36,377 bases of DNA from an uncultured Oscillospiraceae bacterium (GTDB lineage: Bacteria > Bacillota > Clostridia > Oscillospirales > Oscillospiraceae): contig CANQPU010000018.1 of the NCBI GenBank assembly GCA_947625815.1, positions 1 through 36,377 on the forward strand. Direction: 5' to 3'. Under the pieces are notes generated by a model. It searched no databases and had not been told where the DNA came from. It worked only from the letters and a program-made list of their open reading frames with translations. Below, in pieces: positions 3 through 8,834 of this stretch. Positions within the stretch are counted from its first letter, which is position 1, and the number at the start of each line of letters is the position of its first letter. The position numbers and the translations under genes are program-made.

Positions 3-896
3 ATCTTTTGCAACGCCGATGACCCGGCAATCGGAGAAGATGGGTGCGACCACTATGGAGACGGCCTTGGCGGCTACACCAGCAATTTCTTTCGCTATTT
101 TCAACTCAATTTTACCCAACTGGGAATCAAGAAACTGATTACAACTCACTATGAGGCTGATAAGCCCAGCTACAAATTTGAGATCGTCAGCAGTGACCGA
201 GATGACCAAATTGGGTTGCCGGACTACGTAAAGACTCCTTTGGAGGGCAATGGTGATTTCCGCTCTCCAGAGTGTTTGGATTTGCTGAAAGAATGCGATA
301 TTGTAGTAACAAATCCCCCGTTCTCTTTGATGACGGAATATTTGCCCCTGCTCATAAACAGCGGTAAGCAGTTTTTGGTTTTGGGGAACATGAATCATGC
401 CATGTATGCGGAAATATTTCCATATCTTTTTAGGCAACAGGTGTGGTTAGGGCATAATAGTGGGCATTTTTGGTTTCGTGTCCCTGACTACTATGTTGAA
501 AAAGGGACAGACTTCAAAATAGATGAGCATGGGCAAAAGTGGCGGCGAATGGGAAATATTTGCTGGTTTACAAACATGGACATTGAAAAACGTCACCAGT
601 CACTAATTGAAACGCTATACAAGAAGTATTCAGTTGAAGAATATCCCCAATACGACAATTTTGAAGCAATACACGTTAAAAAGGTTCAAGACATACCGGT
701 CGATTATAATGGGATCATAAGTGTACCTATCACTTTTTTGGACAAGCATAATCCTGATGAATTTGAAATTGTTGGAGAACTAAATCACGGATGCGACAGT
801 GAATTTGATTTAGCTAAACCGATTCTGAATGGTGTCGCACAATATAAACGTATCGCTGTGCGAAGAAAAGCTGTTAAGAGAGTTGGTGAAGAATAA
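3..896 (+). CDS. EcoRI-type adenine-specific DNA methyltransferase, 5' end cut by window edge
   Basis: The frame is open from base 3, so the gene begins outside the window; about 297 residues are visible. It would transfer a methyl group from S-adenosylmethionine to adenine N6 in a short palindrome, which protects host DNA from a partner nuclease. The visible part starts with the IFCNADDP-like stretch and an NFFRYFQLNF segment typical of the EcoRI methylase family, and carries the catalytic motif IV as TNPPF around residue 103 of the visible part. An internal TTG at 216 is not the start, because conserved family sequence lies upstream of it. The stop codon abuts the ATG of the DUF262-HNH gene, so the two are surely co-transcribed. 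Base composition is AT-rich compared with the core genes, which suggests horizontal acquisition. The family call is firm; the recognition sequence cannot be read from the protein. Confidence 0.88.
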   Translation: MFCNADDPAIGEDGCDHYGDGLGGYTSNFFRYFQLNFTQLGIKKLITTHYEADKPSYKFEIVSSDRDDQIGLPDYVKTPLEGNGDFRSPECLDLLKECDIVVTNPPFSLMTEYLPLLINSGKQFLVLGNMNHAMYAEIFPYLFRQQVWLGHNSGHFWFRVPDYYVEKGTDFKIDEHGQKWRRMGNICWFTNMDIEKRHQSLIETLYKKYSVEEYPQYDNFEAIHVKKVQDIPVDYNGIISVPITFLDKHNPDEFEIVGELNHGCDSEFDLAKPILNGVAQYKRIAVRRKAVKRVGEE

Positions 897-2051
897 ATGA
901 ACATCGAACGAATCCAAGTGACGATTCAAGAATTGATTGACGGGTATGAGGAAAAGGGACCTGACGGCATCGAGGGCGTAGTCGCCTATGGCGGCAGATT
1001 GGATGTTCGTCCGGCTTATCAACGCGAGTATATTTATCCCGTTAAAGACCGGGATGAAGTTATCCGTTCCGTCAAGAAAAAGTTTCCTATTAACGTGATG
1101 TATTGGGCCAAAACTGTCAATGGTCGCTTTGAACTTATGGACGGCCAGCAACGCACTATTTCTATTTGCCGTTATGCGGCGGCCAAAGATGAGACTGACC
1201 GGCAGAGCTATGAGCAGTGCTTTTCTGTGGACAACCTATTTTTCTTCAATCTGCCTGAAGATAAGAAACAAGATTTCAGGAATTACGTACTGGATATTTA
1301 TGTCTGCGATGGCACTCCCTCTGAGGTGTTGGACTGGTTCAAAATCATCAATATAGCCGGCAAAGTTCTCTCACCGCAGGAATTGAGAAATACATCTTAC
1401 ACCGGCCCCTGGTTGTCTGACGCGAAAATCCATTTTTCCAAGCCGAATTGTATTGCTTATCGGATTGCTAAGGACTATATGAACGGCTCTCCCATCAGGC
1501 AAGAGTATCTGGAAACGGCTATTGAATGGATAGCCGCCAGAGATGGCCTTGGCTCAATTGAAAATTATATGGGACTCCATCAACAGGACGAGAACGCCAA
1601 TCAGATTTGGCTATATTTCCGGCGGGTTATTGAGTGGGTGGAAGCGATTTTCCCGGTCAAGCGAAAAGAGATGAAAGGGATTGAGTGGGGGCTGCTCTAT
1701 AACCGGTTTAAAGATACCGAGCTTGATCCTGACACGTTAGAGGCGAGAATCAGAACGCTGATGATGGACGATGAGGTAACAAACAAGAAGGGAATATATA
1801 CATACGTTCTAACGGGCGAGGAGAAATATCTGAGTTTGCGTTCCTTTACCGAAGCGCAGAAGCGGGCAGCGTATGAGCGCCAAGGTGGTATCTGTCCTGA
1901 CTGTCAGGCGGCAGGTAGGGCAAAGACACATTATGAGTTCAACGAGATGGAAGCCGATCACATCACGCCATGGAGCCAGGGCGGAAAAACAGTACCGGAG
2001 AATTGCAAGATGCGGTGTGTAGAGTGCAATCGGAGGAAAAGCGATATTTGA
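897..2051 (+). CDS. DUF262 and HNH endonuclease domain protein (GmrSD-like), probable restriction enzyme
   Basis: 384 residues. The N-terminal DUF262 (ParB/Srx-like fold, as in the GmrS subunit of GmrSD) shows RPAYQR at 38-43 and the signature DGQQR at 82-86, which in this family binds or hydrolyses nucleotide. The C-terminus is an HNH nuclease with zinc-knuckle cysteines C333, C336, C374 and C377, catalytic D354-H355 and N369. GmrSD and BrxU, which combine related domains, are nucleotide-dependent enzymes that cut modified phage DNA. Here the gene sits directly after an adenine methyltransferase with no spacer, so it may instead act as the nuclease of a restriction-modification pair (inference). 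It has one fused chain, no visible GmrD-type second half beyond the HNH, and intact active-site residues. The start is the ATG adjoining the upstream stop; translational coupling is likely because no strong separate ribosome binding site is visible. Confidence 0.85.
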   Translation: MNIERIQVTIQELIDGYEEKGPDGIEGVVAYGGRLDVRPAYQREYIYPVKDRDEVIRSVKKKFPINVMYWAKTVNGRFELMDGQQRTISICRYAAAKDETDRQSYEQCFSVDNLFFFNLPEDKKQDFRNYVLDIYVCDGTPSEVLDWFKIINIAGKVLSPQELRNTSYTGPWLSDAKIHFSKPNCIAYRIAKDYMNGSPIRQEYLETAIEWIAARDGLGSIENYMGLHQQDENANQIWLYFRRVIEWVEAIFPVKRKEMKGIEWGLLYNRFKDTELDPDTLEARIRTLMMDDEVTNKKGIYTYVLTGEEKYLSLRSFTEAQKRAAYERQGGICPDCQAAGRAKTHYEFNEMEADHITPWSQGGKTVPENCKMRCVECNRRKSDI

Positions 2052-2069
2052 CTGTTGAGGGGTTAAAAT

Positions 2070-2843
2070 ATGCTGAGTGGAGTAGAAAAAGGAGCTTTTC
2101 TAAAATTATTCAATCGAGGCGGCTATGTACTGGATTTTAGTACAAATGAGTTTGATATTTTTACTGCTGAAAGCATTGGGGTTCCACTCTGTCAAAGGTT
2201 TATGATGTCAAAGGGAAAATCATTGATAGCATATTGTAACTCCGCCACAGATGAGGATATATTAAAACTGTTCTCAGATTTGTTGCAGTACTATGAATTG
2301 AACTACATGAGTAGATTTGACGACTCAGAAAATGAAGTTCTTTATGAAAAGTGCAAGTCATTTTTGGACCGTGAGAGAGGAAAGATTAATGTCAAAACTC
2401 CAGCCATTATCTGCGTAAACAGAGAATATATCATTGATATTTCTTCCAGAGCAATTCGAGATGTGGAAAACGGAGAATACGATAGTGCCATAACAAAATC
2501 AAGGACTCTTTTAGAAGAAGTGTTTTGCCACGCAATTGAGGCAGAGGGAAATATACCTTCAGATAGCGGTGATATAGGTAAGCTATATGGACAAGTGAAA
2601 GCTTTGTATCATATGCATCAGGACAAGAATTTAGATAAACGTATCAACAGCTTATTATCTGGTCTTGAGAAAATACTATCAGCAATTTCAGAAATGAGAA
2701 ATAAGGGAAGTGACTCACATGGCGTAGGTGCAAAGCGGATTAATGTTGAAGATTACCATGCTCGATTATTTGTTAATTCAGCTATGACAATGGCAGATTT
2801 TATTTTGTCAGTAGAAGCAAACGCCCACAAGCAAAGACATTAG
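2070..2843 (+). CDS. Abortive infection family protein with Abi_C (HEPN-like) C-terminal domain
   Basis: 257 residues. The second half, from about residue 110, matches the Abi_C family (AbiJ-type C-terminus): a TLLEEV helix, then a helical bundle, then RNKGSDSHG at 210-218. R210 and H217 have the R-x6-H spacing of the HEPN ribonuclease motif, so RNA cleavage is a reasonable expectation. Abi proteins of this type stop growth or kill the cell during phage infection. The first 100 residues are not recognised and may be a sensor. The gene starts 18 bases after the nuclease gene and ends 9 bases before the next one, so it belongs to the same operon. It is markedly AT-rich (many AAA, ATA and TTA codons), unlike the core genes. 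Domain call firm; biochemical activity and trigger unknown. Confidence 0.8.
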   Translation: MLSGVEKGAFLKLFNRGGYVLDFSTNEFDIFTAESIGVPLCQRFMMSKGKSLIAYCNSATDEDILKLFSDLLQYYELNYMSRFDDSENEVLYEKCKSFLDRERGKINVKTPAIICVNREYIIDISSRAIRDVENGEYDSAITKSRTLLEEVFCHAIEAEGNIPSDSGDIGKLYGQVKALYHMHQDKNLDKRINSLLSGLEKILSAISEMRNKGSDSHGVGAKRINVEDYHARLFVNSAMTMADFILSVEANAHKQRH

Positions 2844-2852
2844 GAGGATAAT

Positions 2853-3623
2853 ATGCCTAAATCAGAATTAGAAAAGCAACTAGAAAAGCAAGGTAGACAA
2901 GCTAAACAACTAGCAGATCGACAGAGGCGTGATAATCAAAAGCAAGCGCGAGAAGCGGAACGGACTGCACATAAAGAGGCTATTCGTGTGCAAGCGGCAT
3001 CAATTGTTAATGGGCAACCCCTTGTTGATAATTTCCGCGTGATGGATCCTACATCCGAGGAAGTCCTTCGCTGTTTACTTCAGTGTGAACTGCACCAAGG
3101 GAACCATATTAGATTTAATGATGAGGATTTTCCTGATTATGTGCAAATGTCAATCCCATTAGAGATTGAGAAACTAATACAGTATGGTATGGTCGCTGGG
3201 CCGAATAGATGGATGGGAGGCGGAACTTTGTATATCCAACCACCTGCATTTACATATTTCCAAGACAAGCAGGAAGCCATGGAACGGCAAAAAAATGTTC
3301 AAGCAACTAATCAAATTAGCAATGTTGTTAACTATGGGCATTTTGTTGTTGGCAATGTATCTGATTCCACGATGGCCATAGATAACTCAATCCAACATAT
3401 TGAGAAGGCCATAGATGATCAGGGCGGCGAGGATAAAGAAGAACTTCATGCACTTTTGGAAGAAGTCAAGGAGCTAATTGACAACATGAAAACAAGTAGG
3501 TCTATTCCAAGGCAAAAAAGGCTATATGAAAGATTACAAGAGCATTTATGTAAGCATGGATGGTTTTATGGTGCGGTTATTCAACTTTTAGGAACCGCAG
3601 CTATGGGAATACTTGGCGCATAG
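2853..3623 (+). CDS. Unrecognised protein with charged coiled-coil N-terminus and hydrophobic C-terminal tail
   Basis: 256 residues, start ATG preceded by AGGAGG with a 6-base spacer. Residues 1-50 are almost all Lys, Arg, Glu, Gln and Ala and should form a basic coiled coil. A middle part (about 55-145) looks globular. Around residues 160-185 is an Asn/Ser/Val-rich stretch, a type I have seen linking domains in phage-defence proteins. Next comes an acidic helix (about 190-215), and residues 236-256 form a short hydrophobic segment rich in Gly, Ala, Leu and Ile that could insert in or sit on a membrane. I do not recognise the family. It is the fourth gene of the methyltransferase, nuclease, Abi_C operon and has the same AT-rich composition. 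A role as a membrane-active effector or scaffold of that system is inference from position and layout only. Confidence 0.6.
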   Translation: MPKSELEKQLEKQGRQAKQLADRQRRDNQKQAREAERTAHKEAIRVQAASIVNGQPLVDNFRVMDPTSEEVLRCLLQCELHQGNHIRFNDEDFPDYVQMSIPLEIEKLIQYGMVAGPNRWMGGGTLYIQPPAFTYFQDKQEAMERQKNVQATNQISNVVNYGHFVVGNVSDSTMAIDNSIQHIEKAIDDQGGEDKEELHALLEEVKELIDNMKTSRSIPRQKRLYERLQEHLCKHGWFYGAVIQLLGTAAMGILGA

Positions 3624-4125: not shown

Positions 4126-4476
4126 TCAGAAATAAATCAGTTCGTTCAGTATCACCTCTTCCGCCGCATTGCGGATATTGTTCATCGCCTCTACCCACGC
4201 CATCTGATTCTCTGCTTTGAGTTGCTCCGTGATGCCCTGCTCTGCCGCCATCTGGCGGGTCAGGCACTCGAACATTTCCTCTGCCTGCCGGTCGATCTCC
4301 GCAAGATGTGCGTTGAGCTTGCCTGAGAGAAGCATCCCTGTATATACCCCGTTACGATGTTTCTCCAGATACTCCCTTCGCCTCCTGCCCCAAATGCCGA
4401 TGGATTCTGCCTCCGGTGCAATCAGATTTGGGATCATGTAGTCACCCTCGCGGTGGTAAGTTAATTGTGTGCTCAT
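4126..4476 (-). CDS. tnpV: Transposon-encoded protein TnpV
   Basis: 116 residues. TnpV is a small protein of unknown function carried by Tn4451-like and other integrative or mobilizable elements of Clostridia. The family pattern is clear: LTYHREGDYMIPNL near the start, GRRRREYLEKHR, LLSGKLNAHLAEID in the centre and NNIRNAAEEVILNELIY at the end. Two ATG codons compete; AGGAGG at 4484-4489 is 7 bases from the ATG at 4476 but only one base from the ATG at 4482, so 4476 is chosen. No recombinase or transposase gene remains nearby, so it seems to be part of a decayed element. It marks this stretch as mobile DNA and is convergent with the defence operon to its left. Confidence 0.85.
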   Translation of the reverse strand: MSTQLTYHREGDYMIPNLIAPEAESIGIWGRRRREYLEKHRNGVYTGMLLSGKLNAHLAEIDRQAEEMFECLTRQMAAEQGITEQLKAENQMAWVEAMNNIRNAAEEVILNELIYF

Positions 4477-4646
4477 TTTCATACCTCCTATTTTTGATAC
4501 CTACATTGTACCAGCCGTCACGTCAAAAGACGAATGTGCAAAAAGAAAACACTAAGAAGACCATTTCTGCCCTTCTGAGCGTCCTCCCGGATATGTGCCG
4601 GTGCCGGATTTTTGTTATTTTACAAAGTCCCTTATGAATAACCGTA

Positions 4647-5020: not shown

Positions 5021-5275
5021 ATGGGTCAAAAGGAAAAACTGATAGAGCGGCTCAGATCAAAGCCGAAGGATTTTACCTTTGATGAGGCGGAAACGCTGTT
5101 AGGGTATCTCTCTTACCGGCGTTCGGACAAAGGGAGGACCAGCGGCTCCCGTGTGGCGTTTGTCAGTGATGACCACGCGCCTATTTTGCTCCACAAGCCG
5201 CATCCCCGAAAAGAACTGCTGGAGTATCAAATCAAACAACTGCTGGACACCTTGGAACAGGAGGGGCTTATATGA
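5021..5275 (+). CDS. hicA: HicA-family toxin (type II toxin-antitoxin), GSR variant
   Basis: 84 residues. HicA toxins are small double-stranded-RNA-binding-like mRNA interferases neutralised by HicB. The start is ATG at 5021, with GGAGGG at 5008-5013 seven bases upstream; the frame is open upstream to 4973 but has no such site. Family features seen are the N-terminal helix, LLGYLSYRR, TSGSRVAF at 41-48 and LHKPHP at 57-62. The classical catalytic His of the G-S-H turn is Arg here (GSR at 42-44); this seems typical of a HicA subfamily in Firmicutes, not a mutation of this copy. It overlaps hicB by four bases (ATGA), the standard translational coupling of such modules. It is likely repressed from the palindrome over its -35 box. 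Confidence 0.85.
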   Translation: MGQKEKLIERLRSKPKDFTFDEAETLLGYLSYRRSDKGRTSGSRVAFVSDDHAPILLHKPHPRKELLEYQIKQLLDTLEQEGLI

Positions 5276-5616
5276 ACAATACGATGGAGTATAAGGGTTA
5301 CTTGGGAAGCGTGGAGTTTTCCGAGGCCGACGGGGTGTTTTTCGGCAAGGTGATGGGGATCCGCGGGCTGCTCTCCTACGAGGGCACCAACGCGAAAGAG
5401 CTGGTGGAGGACTTCCACGGCGTCGTGGACGACTACCTTGCCCTTTGCGCGGCGGATGGGAAGGAGCCGGAGCGGGCATACAAGGGGAGCTTCAACGTCC
5501 GTGTATCCCCGGAGCTTCACAAACAGGCCGTCATCTGCGCGGAGGCCCAGCGAATCTCGCTGAACAGCTTTGTGGAACAGGCCCTCGCCAAATCCGTGGC
5601 CGGCCAGCGGCCCTGA
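5272..5616 (+). CDS. hicB: HicB-family antitoxin
   Basis: 114 residues. The N-terminal part is the HicB fold, an inactivated RNase H-like domain: YKGYLGSVEFSEADGVFFGKV, then a GLLSYEG turn and an ELVEDFHGVVDDY helix. The C-terminal 40 residues are a ribbon-helix-helix DNA-binding domain, with the FNVRVSPELH strand and a helix ending SLNSFVEQAL. It should bind HicA and block it, and with its C-terminal domain repress the operon. A ribosome site GGAGGGG at 5260-5266 lies inside the end of hicA and the start overlaps the hicA stop. It is followed after about 95 bases by a bidirectional terminator. Composition is more GC-rich than that of the defence operon to the left, so this module may have come separately. 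Confidence 0.9.
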   Translation: MNNTMEYKGYLGSVEFSEADGVFFGKVMGIRGLLSYEGTNAKELVEDFHGVVDDYLALCAADGKEPERAYKGSFNVRVSPELHKQAVICAEAQRISLNSFVEQALAKSVAGQRP

Positions 5617-6225: not shown

Positions 6226-6360
6226 TTTTCCACCACCTTATAGGATGATGGAAATATTATATGTTTATTGGTCAGAAAATTAGTCCCTGTGACTGTACTA
6301 ATCGGCGTGTTTGTGATATGATAGCCAGGCGTTTAGCTTGATAACGGAGGACATGCCGCC

Positions 6361-6399
6361 CAAAAAATAAAGAACCGCTGAGCGGTTCTTTATTTTTTG
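6361..6399. terminator. Strong terminator at the end of the isomerase gene
   Basis: Perfect inverted repeat with arms 6361-6379 and 6381-6399, A/T-rich at the base and GC-rich near the loop. It works in both directions; the nearest gene it serves is the leftward isomerase whose stop is at 6435. Confidence 0.8.
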
Positions 6400-6434
6400 G
6401 TGGAGACGCGATCCCGCTCGGCGGGCCGGGGCCG

Positions 6435-7913
6435 TCAGGCCCAGGGGTTCTCGGTGGGATACGGCAGGGCCTTGGGCTGATTCCAGGCGATGTCCTGGAC
6501 GCCCAGGTACTTCAGGACCTCGAAGAGGGCCTTGCCGCAGTGGGCGAAGGCCACGGCGCCGTGGTGGGGATAGCGCTTCTGGATGAGGACGTGGCGATAG
6601 AAGCGGCCCATCTCGGGGATGGCGAAGATGCCGATGCCGCCAAAGGAGCGGGTGGCCACGGGCAGGACCTGGCCCTCGGCCACGTAGGAGCGGAGGTTCC
6701 CCTCGCTGTCGCACTGGAGGCGGTAGAAGGTGATGTCGCCGGGGGCGATGTCGCCCTCCAGCGTGCCGCGGGTGAAGTCGGGGTCGGATCCCTCCGGCTC
6801 CAGGAGGCGGTGCTGGATGAGCTGATACTTGATGGCCCGGGACTCACACATCTTGCACTCCGGGGTGTTGCCGCAGTGGAAGCCCATGAAGGTGTCGGTG
6901 AGCTTGTAGTCGAACTTGCCCTTGATGTCCTCGTCGTAGATGTAGCCGGGGACGGAGTTGTTGATGTCCAGGAGCGTCACGGCGTCGCCCGTGACGCAGG
7001 CGCCTATGTACTCGGAGAGGGCGCCGTAGATGTCCACCTCGCAGGCCACGGGGATGCCGCGGGAGGCCAGGCGGGAGTTTACGTAGCAGGGCTCGAAGCC
7101 GAAGGCCTCGGGGAAGGCGGGCCAGCACTTATTGGCGAAGGCCACATATTTCCGGGCGCCCTTGTGCGCCTCGGCCCAGTCAAGGAGCGTCAGCTCAAAC
7201 TGGGCAAGCCGCTCGTTCATCTCCGGGAAGTACCGGCCCTCGCCCATCTCGGCGGCCATCTCCTTGCAGACGGCGGGGATGCGGGGATCTCCCGCGTGGG
7301 CCTTATAGCTGACGAGAAGGTCCAGCTCGGAATTTTCCTCGATCTCCACGCCCAGCTCGTAGAGACCCTTTATCGGGGCGTTGCAGGCGAAGAAGTCCTG
7401 GGGCCGGGGGCCGAAGGTGATGATCTTCAGGTTCTTGACGCCGATGATGGCCCGGGCGATGGGGACAAAGTCCGCGATCATCTTGCAGATGTCGTCCTTG
7501 GTGCCCACGGGGTACTCGGGGATGTAGCCCTTCAGGTGCCGGAGGCCCAGGTTGTAGGAGCAGTTGAGCATGCCGCAGTAGGCGTCGCCGCGGCCGTTGA
7601 TCATGTCGCCGTCGCCCTCGGCGGCGGAGACGAACATGCAGGGGCCGTCAAACTTCTGGGCGATGAGGGTCTCGGGGGTCTCGGGGCCGAAGTTGCCGAG
7701 GAAGACCACCAGGGCGTTGCACCCGGCGGCGGTGACGTCGGCCACGGCCTTCAGGGCGTCGTGCTCGTTCTCGACGGTGACGGGGCACTCGTAGAGATCG
7801 CCGGGATAGGCCGCGACGATGTTCTTTCTCCTCTGGGTGGACAGGGCGATGGGGAAGCAGTCACGGGAGACGGCGACGATGCCGAGCTTGACTTCGGGGA
7901 TGTTGTTGGACAT
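6435..7913 (-). CDS. L-fucose/L-arabinose isomerase family protein
   Basis: 492 residues. It belongs to the aldose-ketose isomerase family of L-fucose and L-arabinose isomerases, which use a divalent metal to interconvert aldoses and ketoses. Family features are the N-terminal Rossmann-like half (VKLGIVAVSRDCFP, then ALVVFLGNFGPET) and a C-terminal half with GFHCGNTP and a late HHGAVAFAH stretch. The start is ATG at 7913: AAGGAGGT is well placed, while an upstream ATG at 7943 precedes that site. It follows the mrp gene on the same strand after 81 bases, in which a perfect 18-bp GC palindrome lies. No sugar kinase, aldolase or transporter is adjacent, so the substrate cannot be deduced from context. 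Family call good; the exact sugar is unknown. Confidence 0.8.
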   Translation of the reverse strand: MSNNIPEVKLGIVAVSRDCFPIALSTQRRKNIVAAYPGDLYECPVTVENEHDALKAVADVTAAGCNALVVFLGNFGPETPETLIAQKFDGPCMFVSAAEGDGDMINGRGDAYCGMLNCSYNLGLRHLKGYIPEYPVGTKDDICKMIADFVPIARAIIGVKNLKIITFGPRPQDFFACNAPIKGLYELGVEIEENSELDLLVSYKAHAGDPRIPAVCKEMAAEMGEGRYFPEMNERLAQFELTLLDWAEAHKGARKYVAFANKCWPAFPEAFGFEPCYVNSRLASRGIPVACEVDIYGALSEYIGACVTGDAVTLLDINNSVPGYIYDEDIKGKFDYKLTDTFMGFHCGNTPECKMCESRAIKYQLIQHRLLEPEGSDPDFTRGTLEGDIAPGDITFYRLQCDSEGNLRSYVAEGQVLPVATRSFGGIGIFAIPEMGRFYRHVLIQKRYPHHGAVAFAHCGKALFEVLKYLGVQDIAWNQPKALPYPTENPWA

Positions 7914-7958
7914 GGGGATTACCTCCTTATATATGTGATTCAAATATTTTTTCCGGGA

Positions 7959-7976
7959 GCGCGGCCCGGGCCGCGC
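7959..7976. repeat. Perfect 18-bp GC palindrome between mrp and the isomerase gene
   Basis: The 9-bp arms meet with no spacer. No T run follows on the minus strand, so it is not a normal terminator. It could be an RNA-processing or partial-attenuation hairpin that sets the ratio of mrp to isomerase mRNA (inference). Confidence 0.5.
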
Positions 7977-7994
7977 GTTTCTGGTGCCGGGCCG

Positions 7995-8834
7995 TCAGGC
8001 GTTCTCGATGGCGGTGAGGATCTCGTCCAGCATGTTGGTCTCCACGGCCTCGATGTCTCCGGCGTCGCTGGCCCTGGCGATGGAGGCGTCGATGGGCAGG
8101 CGGGCGGTGACGGAAATATGGTGGCTCCCGGCCAGCTCCTCCAGGCGGCTCCGGCCGTAAATGAAGTGCTTTTTGCCGCAGTCGGGGCACTCAAAATAGG
8201 ACATGTTCTCCACGATGCCGAGGACCGGGATCTCCATGAGCTCCGCCATTTTCAGGGCCTTCTCCACCACCAGGGACACCAGCTCCTGAGGGGAGGTGAC
8301 GATGACGATCCCGTTCACCGGGAGGGACTGGAAAACCGTCAGGGGCACGTCGCCCGTTCCGGGGGGCATGTCAACGAACATGTAGTCCACGTCGCCCCAG
8401 TAGACCTCCTTCCAAAACTGCTGGACCACGCCCCCGATGATGGGGCCGCGCCAGACCACGGGATCCGTGGGGTCGTCCAGGAGGAGATTCATGCTCATGA
8501 CGGAGATCCCCGTGCGCGTCGAGGCGGGGATAATGCCCTCCTCGATACCGGCGGCCCGCTCGGAAACGCCGAAGGCCTTGGGGATGGACGGGCCGGTGAT
8601 GTCCGCGTCCATGATGGCCACGGCCTTGCCCCGGCGGCGCATGGCGGCGGCCAGCAGGCTTGTCACCATGGATTTTCCGACGCCGCCCTTTCCGGAGACG
8701 ACGGCGATGACCTTTTTTACGTTGGAGGAGGGGTTGCACTCCTGCCGGAAGCTCTCCTTCGACTGTTTCCCCTCCTCGCGGCTGGCGCAGTTGGCCGCGC
8801 AGGTGGAGCAGTCATGGGTACATTCTTCGCTCAA
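7995..8834 (-). CDS. mrp: Mrp/NBP35-family iron-sulfur cluster carrier ATPase
   Basis: 279 residues. This cytosolic P-loop protein binds and transfers Fe-S clusters to apoproteins. Visible are an N-terminal cysteine cluster (C5, C9, C12, C16), the deviant Walker A GKGGVGKS at 48-55, MDADITGPSIP at 76-86, DMPPGTGD at 156-163, and the CPDC pair C217/C220 that holds the bridging cluster at the dimer interface. The start is a TTG at 8834: AAGGAGG lies 8 bases upstream, and the product then begins MSEECTHDCSTC, the usual opening of clostridial members. The frame stays open to 8900 without a ribosome site. It has its own promoter, divergent from murA, and is probably transcribed into the isomerase gene. 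Confidence 0.95.
   Translation of the reverse strand: MSEECTHDCSTCAANCASREEGKQSKESFRQECNPSSNVKKVIAVVSGKGGVGKSMVTSLLAAAMRRRGKAVAIMDADITGPSIPKAFGVSERAAGIEEGIIPASTRTGISVMSMNLLLDDPTDPVVWRGPIIGGVVQQFWKEVYWGDVDYMFVDMPPGTGDVPLTVFQSLPVNGIVIVTSPQELVSLVVEKALKMAELMEIPVLGIVENMSYFECPDCGKKHFIYGRSRLEELAGSHHISVTARLPIDASIARASDAGDIEAVETNMLDEILTAIENA

Follow-up and report, generated by a model that had tools for sequence, protein, structure and literature searches.

A probably mobile methylase-nuclease gene pair with an exchangeable methylase end, stacked before two accessory genes in an Oscillospiraceae contig

Contig CANQPU010000018.1 of an uncultured Oscillospiraceae bacterium (GenBank assembly GCA_947625815.1) opens with four closely spaced genes: an EcoRI-family methylase (M), a nuclease with DUF262 and HNH domains (R), an Abi_C/HEPN protein (gene 3) and an orphan (gene 4). 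Do these genes form one layered defence system, or do they merely stand side by side? We analyzed a window comprising positions 1 to 36,377 of the contig, and our comparisons support the view that the stretch is a mobile two-gene restriction-modification (R-M) module with two independent accessory genes stacked behind it, that is, a defence-island stack. The cassette is ordinary as a stack; it is the M family that is unusual, with a constant nuclease, an exchangeable methylase end and ends encoded in three frames. We consider the case evenly balanced for a further reading, in which the nuclease of a widespread R-M family would have no target of its own, the swappable methylase module would set the target of both enzymes, and at least three lineages would choose among three-frame ends by a slippable repeat, allowing a one-step change of target without self-killing.

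The four same-strand open reading frames (ORFs) proposed in a preliminary description of this DNA were confirmed on the sequence at 3-896, 897-2051, 2070-2843 and 2853-3623 (+), with the gaps of 0, 18 and 9 bases that it gave. Base 1 of the window is base 1 of the contig, and the ORFs open right at the contig edge. For this reason M lacks its N-terminus, by about 40 residues when compared with its relative at locus L074, whose N-terminus is present. A second PF13651 match that might complete M was sought among the 35 contigs of the genome, and none was found. The features of the first two genes are as follows:

3..896, + strand: M, EcoRI-family adenine methylase, 5' end cut (PF13651 EcoRI_methylase, E=9.6e-88, 295 bits; PADLOC MTase_II)
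312..323, + strand: NPPF catalytic motif of M, intact, read from the translation (T-N-P-P-F-S-L is invariant in 53 aligned M proteins)
720..893, + strand: exchangeable C-terminal module of M (SVPITFLDKHNPDEFEIVG...YKRIAVRRK), a putative target-recognition module; single, without a repeat
897..2051, + strand: R, DUF262 (ParB/Srx-like) and HNH nuclease, the partner of M (PF03235 5.3e-17, PF01844 4.8e-10, PADLOC REase_II 3.6e-126)
1140..1154, + strand: DGQQR motif in the DUF262 domain of R, invariant in both R alignments (24 and 33 proteins)
1893..2045, + strand: HNH nuclease domain of R (Pfam, residues 333-383)

Loci carrying relatives of R were collected from 150 genomes of the family, viral contigs, plasmids, phages, named genomes (80 of 545 loci taken), and 391 genomes of the class, with 80 of 166 viral loci taken. 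A total of 199 loci were taken on and reduced to 180 distinct ones, the window included, leaving 179 relatives. R matches were present in 21 of the 150 family genomes, with eight other genomes holding nine full-length relatives at 51-58% identity, and in 9 of the 391 class genomes, the own genome included; a further 11 viral contigs (single query), 57 plasmid records and 7 phage records had matches as well. For 162 loci the sequence reaches 900 bp or more upstream of R. An automatic search placed M upstream in 157 of them (within 60 bp in 141) and downstream in 3, and found none in 2. One of these two, L056, on E. dispar plasmid NZ_CP116586.1, has M annotated 2.6 kb upstream of R, behind an insert; once it is counted, M is near R in 161/162 loci with room, with L120 as the sole exception. 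All seven plasmid and phage records examined, out of the 57 and 7 with R, also have M, down to 34% R identity. M and R are near-obligate partners. The impression that the first two genes look like a modification and restriction pair is therefore borne out, and the expectation that a DUF262-HNH protein usually stands alone does not fit this family, since an EcoRI-family methylase is found beside R nearly everywhere and PADLOC files both proteins as Type II.

Several variants of the pair were met in passing. In L056 (61-4699) the optrA resistance gene sits between M and R. M is downstream of R in L151, L208 and L234, and in L208 the R gene is followed immediately by another R-like ORF. Two tandem EcoRI-family methylases precede a single R in L040 (3938-5837), and a complete M-R pair is carried by Flavobacterium phage laban6-1 (L055, 2778-5140). 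In E. coli A34 (L244, 1862-3984) a DNA-level relative of an Aeromonas R, with M in front, stands beside an antiterminator Q gene and IS66. M is split over two frames without an obvious repeat in L023, L106 and L117, which may reflect off states, decay or assembly errors. Allelic variation within E. coli was also considered as a source of comparison, and abandoned as the Aeromonas R used as DNA query matched 1 of 5,426 complete genomes, which is too few.

M ends in a module of about 50-100 residues, which follows a constant segment like GVPITFLDKYNPEQFEI; after the variable stretch comes a constant ending of the kind Y-x-R-I-x-I-R-x-K. The module type of the window, NHGCDSEYDLAKP, recurs in L022, L074, L094, L132 and L189; types like LDDHRVPWRGRGPDLNGK are shared by L044, L084, L099 and L239, and types like ATESEGKGFSNGLW by L026, L101, L147, L174 and L205. 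Similar module types recur in distant hosts. For a quantitative comparison, pairwise alignments were restricted to the part of M that starts at residue 19 past the GVPITF-type motif, and module identity was taken from them. The M stop falls within 60 bp of R in 150 of the 180 loci; the other 30 comprise 20 in which M is not adjacent and 10 without an M match, eight of these ten having less than 600 bp upstream and the remaining two being L056 and L120. Dropping 13 loci without the motif and 9 with M shorter than 280 residues left 128 complete M-R pairs, whose modules fall into 71 clusters at 62% identity, the largest of 8.

Over these 128 pairs (8,128 comparisons), the Spearman correlation is 0.08 between module and R and 0.15 between module and the rest of M, against 0.53 between R and the rest of M. 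R identity reaches 85% or more in 33 comparisons; the modules are unrelated (<50%) in 27 of these and of the same type (>=60%) in 6. Between two and six module types occur within 8 of 12 R clusters. Conversely, L055 and L121, for example, share a module at 86% identity with R at 40%. When R was compared window by window between same-module pairs and different-module pairs of matched overall identity (87 pairs), the largest excess was 0.057 (standard deviation 0.020), without clear covariation; the same test on the N-terminal part of M gave a largest excess of 0.045, again with no clear covariation. A single case is provided by the DNA of L074 and L075: identity is 97-99% over the 5' half of M, then falls to 80, 67, 68, 63 and 30%, and returns to 93-100% from the first base of R. 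This is a clean mosaic, in which the 3' half of M has been replaced and R, 99% alike in the two loci, kept. Exchange of the module with R held constant is thus established in these alignments, and the module would be the target reader of M.

Some relatives go further and encode more than one end. A uniform filter, which asked for two or more frames with a module end upstream of R, picked out 6 of 174 loci (L029, L078, L118, L124, L140 and L152) and none of the other 168; L151 (Riemerella columbina), where M follows R, makes a seventh three-frame locus. In all seven, a tract resembling a repeat lies at the module ends, either inside them or immediately in front, and no unit length is a multiple of three: (CAGA)6 in L029, (CAGA)19 in L152 and (AAGC)4+4 in L140, all at contig starts, together with (AG)9 in L078, G9 in L124, an interrupted G7AG3 in L118 and (GAGAA)12 in L151. 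The repeat is seen inside the M coding region in L078, L124 and L151. Repeats with units of 2-8 bases are scarce around these genes, being present in 6 of 180 loci: L029, L078, L140 and L152 have theirs at the module, L092 and L158 upstream of M.

These alternative ends are conserved as protein. An off-frame end of L078, from a Eubacterium metagenome-assembled genome (MAG), is 90% identical over 30 amino acids to an off-frame end of L151. Between L118 and L124 the three ends match at 76-78%, yet each locus is read into a different end, and the best-conserved frame shifts along the segment, with peaks of 75, 93 and 86% amino-acid identity versus 42-46, 57-64 and 20-29% for the other two frames in the same windows. 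All 15 typed alternative ends match other modules at E<=0.01, several of them over the constant last residues only; near-whole-module matches, at 56-88%, were obtained for L029 f1, L140 f1 and f2, and L152 f1 and f2. Three-frame ends with protein-level conservation are thus documented, as far as alignments can tell, and the frames may switch in living populations. Other possible phase-variation sites were noticed away from the module, namely (GCAAGTTC)5 and (CGGCA)12 upstream of M in L092 and L158, together with a G22 run in L218, close to where R ends (3' side).

We propose that M would methylate adenine at sites read by its exchangeable C-terminal module, and that R, an HNH nuclease with a probably NTP (nucleoside triphosphate)-binding DUF262/ParB-like domain, would cut unmethylated DNA at the sites of M. 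Without a target reader matched to M, R would depend on M, either directly or as a complex, and would take its target from it. A change of module would then alter the targets of methylation and cutting together, and because only M would carry specificity, the module could be swapped without killing the cell. Where a repeat has a unit that is not a multiple of three, replication slippage could choose among three modules in three frames. That M supplies the target for both enzymes, and that some lineages could switch it by frame, appears to us somewhat more likely than not.

Several observations weigh against this proposal. Same-module pairs have a slightly higher mean R identity than different-module pairs (0.62 versus 0.58, R<80% only), so the independence of R and module is imperfect, and the window-by-window test on R covered columns of at least 70% occupancy. 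L095, in which M ends out of frame, accounts for two of the 27 discordant pairs; its removal leaves 25 of 31. The module may not be what reads the target, as the change in L075 begins upstream of it and M has other variable stretches. With regard to the three-frame ends, the contigs of L029, L140 and L152 start inside the repeat, so that the upstream M is presumed there; clear frame-specific conservation between L078 and L151 is confined to the last end (93% versus 43-50%); and, as L118 and L124 belong to different MAGs and the tract of L118 is interrupted, their difference in register may be fixed. The M of the window itself has a single module without a repeat. Finally, the predicted fold of M is of moderate confidence (predicted local distance difference test, pLDDT, 78; predicted template modelling score, pTM, 0.80) and the fold search with this model gave no useful structural match, so the module cannot be placed on DNA; searches of solved structures by sequence, with M alone and as a profile, returned none.

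An alternative is that M and R are an ordinary Type II pair. R would then recognize a fixed site of its own, protected by M; the C-terminal variability of M would mark a tolerant surface stretch with no part in target reading, and the two enzymes would agree on one target whichever module is present. PADLOC files both proteins as Type II, the two-gene layout is classical, and the architecture of R is uniform across the aligned relatives, all of which would agree with such a pair. A merely tolerant stretch, however, would hardly be expected to yield module types that recur across distant hosts, or off-frame ends that are conserved as protein. If the module sets the target of M, a replacement such as that between L074 and L075 should be intolerable beside a Type II nuclease that reads DNA for itself, whereas a nuclease taking its target from M would accept it. 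We regard the ordinary Type II pair as unlikely.

R as a protein raises another alternative. It consists of GmrSD_N (DUF262) and HNH domains by Pfam, and the PADLOC REase_II profile spans nearly the whole of it (419 bits), so its kind is already catalogued. The HNH residues C333, C336, D354, H355, N369, C374 and N378 are invariant in the two R alignments. The AlphaFold model of R (pLDDT 85, pTM 0.64) has partial fold matches to ParB-type proteins, BrxU, SspE and a DndI entry, as well as a local match to the HNH enzyme 4h9d, all at E above 0.001; by sequence, the matches among solved structures are HNH-containing chains, one lysozyme (E=0.016) and BrxU (E=0.064). R might accordingly be a modification-sensing nuclease of the GmrSD/SspE kind, responding to the methyl mark or to foreign modifications independently of sequence, with M needed for another reason. 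The DGQQR-bearing DUF262 domain and the partial matches to BrxU, SspE and DndI speak for this, SspE is a precedent for a DUF262 nuclease coupled to a set of modification genes (PMC10952713), and the constancy of R would be accounted for too. On the other hand, the C-terminal domain is a plain HNH (PF01844) standing in the place of DUF1524, for which R had no Pfam match up to E=1, and a near-obligate adjoining M is unlike stand-alone Type IV enzymes. A modification-sensing R is in our view improbable, and we retain the proposal that R is guided by M.

What remains is the place of the two genes behind R, whose features are:

2070..2843, + strand: Abi_C/HEPN protein (gene 3) with an AbiJ-like C-terminal half, a neighbour and no conserved partner (PF14355 6.2e-20, PADLOC AbiJ 3.1e-49)
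2697..2720, + strand: RN-x5-H motif of the Abi_C protein
2853..3623, + strand: orphan (gene 4) with a short hydrophobic C-terminus, rare and in unconserved context; no match above curated cut-off

Gene 3 had been called an Abi_C/HEPN protein, and the PF14355 match (71.5 bits) together with the RN-x5-H motif, which we take to be the HEPN RNase signature, upholds this; the C-terminal half of PADLOC AbiJ matches at 166 bits. The motif is present in 10 of 11 relatives with alignment over it; L064 is gapped there and L038 starts beyond it. Against solved structures, the sequence of gene 3 gave a chance-level match alone (E=0.59). Judging from its family, gene 3 is most likely a HEPN-kind RNase that would arrest growth on infection by its own trigger. 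Its relatives occur in 3 of 150 family genomes and 5 of 295 order genomes (itself included), in other settings, for instance beside Fic or RelE/ParE genes or among ORFs resembling mobilisation genes. The membrane tail ascribed to gene 4 amounts to its short hydrophobic C-terminus. Gene 4 has no Pfam or NCBIfam match above curated cut-off, and its weak matches are at best SspC in PADLOC (E=0.0023) and E=0.041 in PHROGs. It was found as itself only in the 150 family genomes; in the order, 4 of 394 genomes have it, a count that takes in its own genome and one weak match; plasmids and viral contigs gave no relatives, and phages one weak match (E=8e-4, 27%). An Abi_C and orphan pair conserved in its own right was considered and discarded: the orphan relatives L068 (full-length) and L069 (fragment) have no Abi_C match alongside, and no Abi_C locus examined has an orphan match (tblastn E<=0.01).

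Relatives of genes 3 and 4 occupy other contexts than the M-R loci. Of the 179 relatives, 149 extend for 1,500 bp or more beyond R. In the full set gene 4 has no match beside R, and Abi_C has one weak match, in L098 (E=0.003 and 0.007), so that its pairing with M-R is not a conserved one. The two nearest relatives of the window, L074 (M 94%, R 93%) and L075 (M 75%, R 92%), hold in the same slot an orphan of about 229 amino acids and an AbiTii protein (PF18864, E=4e-47 and 7e-42), and Thoeris-like TIR, ThsB and SIR2-STALD genes stand directly behind M-R in L076 (R 68%; 6290-8812). Downstream sequence of 400 bp or more is available for 168 loci, and in 72 of them a same-strand ORF of at least 90 amino acids starts within 150 bp of R; these ORFs are of many kinds, and as they were called mechanically, some may be no genes. 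The four-gene order was kept in no other genome examined, an outcome that the preliminary description had itself named as refuting its proposal, and the unit is therefore a local stack; the layered or previously undescribed four-gene defence system that had been suggested is unsupported. In this one genome the Abi_C protein might still guard M-R. Such a system, with the Abi_C protein and the orphan as dedicated back-up effectors firing when M-R fails, would suit the tight gene spacing in this genome and the general precedent of toxins coupled to restriction systems (PMC12707154), but is very improbable given the single weak Abi_C match and absent orphan among the relatives, the other cargo behind R at 92-93% identity, the differing composition of the two halves, and the want of an Abi_C and orphan pair elsewhere.

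As for composition, the GC content is 41.7% for M, 47.2% for R, 36.6% for Abi_C and 41.4% for the orphan, compared with 60.9% for the window from base 4500 on. The AT-rich composition said to be shared by the four genes holds only relative to the rest of the window: GC at third codon positions is 43 and 54 in M and R versus 32 and 33 in genes 3 and 4, so the two halves differ. Shine-Dalgarno-like sequences can be read before gene 3 (GAGGGG) and gene 4 (AGGAGG). Promoter-like sites number 9, versus 9.1 in shuffles, and terminator-like sites 6 versus 4.8 (standard deviation 2.0); being at about shuffle level, these counts do not support a single transcript. After the four genes lie a TnpV transposon protein gene (4126-4482, -) and a HicB-family gene (5272-5616, +), which point to mobile DNA.

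If the proposed guidance of R by M is true, M-R, now classed with plain Type II, would resemble a minimal Type III in being guided by M, and its effector would be a DUF262-HNH nuclease. From natural allele pairs, L074 and L075 among them, one could see directly how a nuclease follows the changed target of its methylase. The three-frame module would make a specificity switch of unusual compactness, with three coding ends overlapping in one stretch of DNA. The locus also teaches caution, in that tightly spaced strings of defence genes are no systems unless their order recurs.

Among known systems, the Abi_C/AbiJ HEPN proteins are matched by gene 3 in the Abi_C domain, the AbiJ C-terminal half and the RN-x5-H motif; gene 3 adds nothing new to them, and its position behind M-R is seen in this genome only. 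The modification-dependent DUF262 and DUF1524 enzymes GmrSD, BrxU and SspE resemble R in the DUF262 DGQQR motif, a His-Me-type nuclease and partial fold matches, and differ from it in that R has HNH (PF01844) for DUF1524 and is nearly always beside an EcoRI-family methylase. With Type II R-M systems (PADLOC MTase_II PDLC03297 and REase_II PDLC03418) the pair shares an adjacent methylase with NPPF, a separate nuclease and strong profile matches; unlike them, R has a DUF262 domain and fails to follow the exchangeable M module. The mark of Type II, that each enzyme reads the same site by itself, appears doubtful for R, which hardly covaries with that module. In our search of the open-licence PubMed Central literature, no description of the M-R family or of a three-frame module choice was found.

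Type III (Mod/Res) and Type I systems likewise exchange a specificity part and keep the nuclease part constant, and slippable repeats occur in their methylase or specificity genes (PMC9465063). In M-R, by contrast, no helicase and no separate S subunit were seen, the module is at the C-terminus of a small Type II-like methylase, and the tract in the relatives of M precedes three alternative ends instead of serving as a plain ON/OFF switch. The nearest precedent that we found for frame-dependent specificity is the Type IIG enzyme JHP1272/HP1353-HP1354 of H. pylori, in which a frameshift in a tract changes the methylase C-terminus and the motif (PMC3936762). The H. pylori enzyme is a single fusion that either has or lacks one extra C-terminal domain; the three-frame relatives of M-R, in comparison, have three alternative ends, one per frame, and their nuclease is separate and constant.

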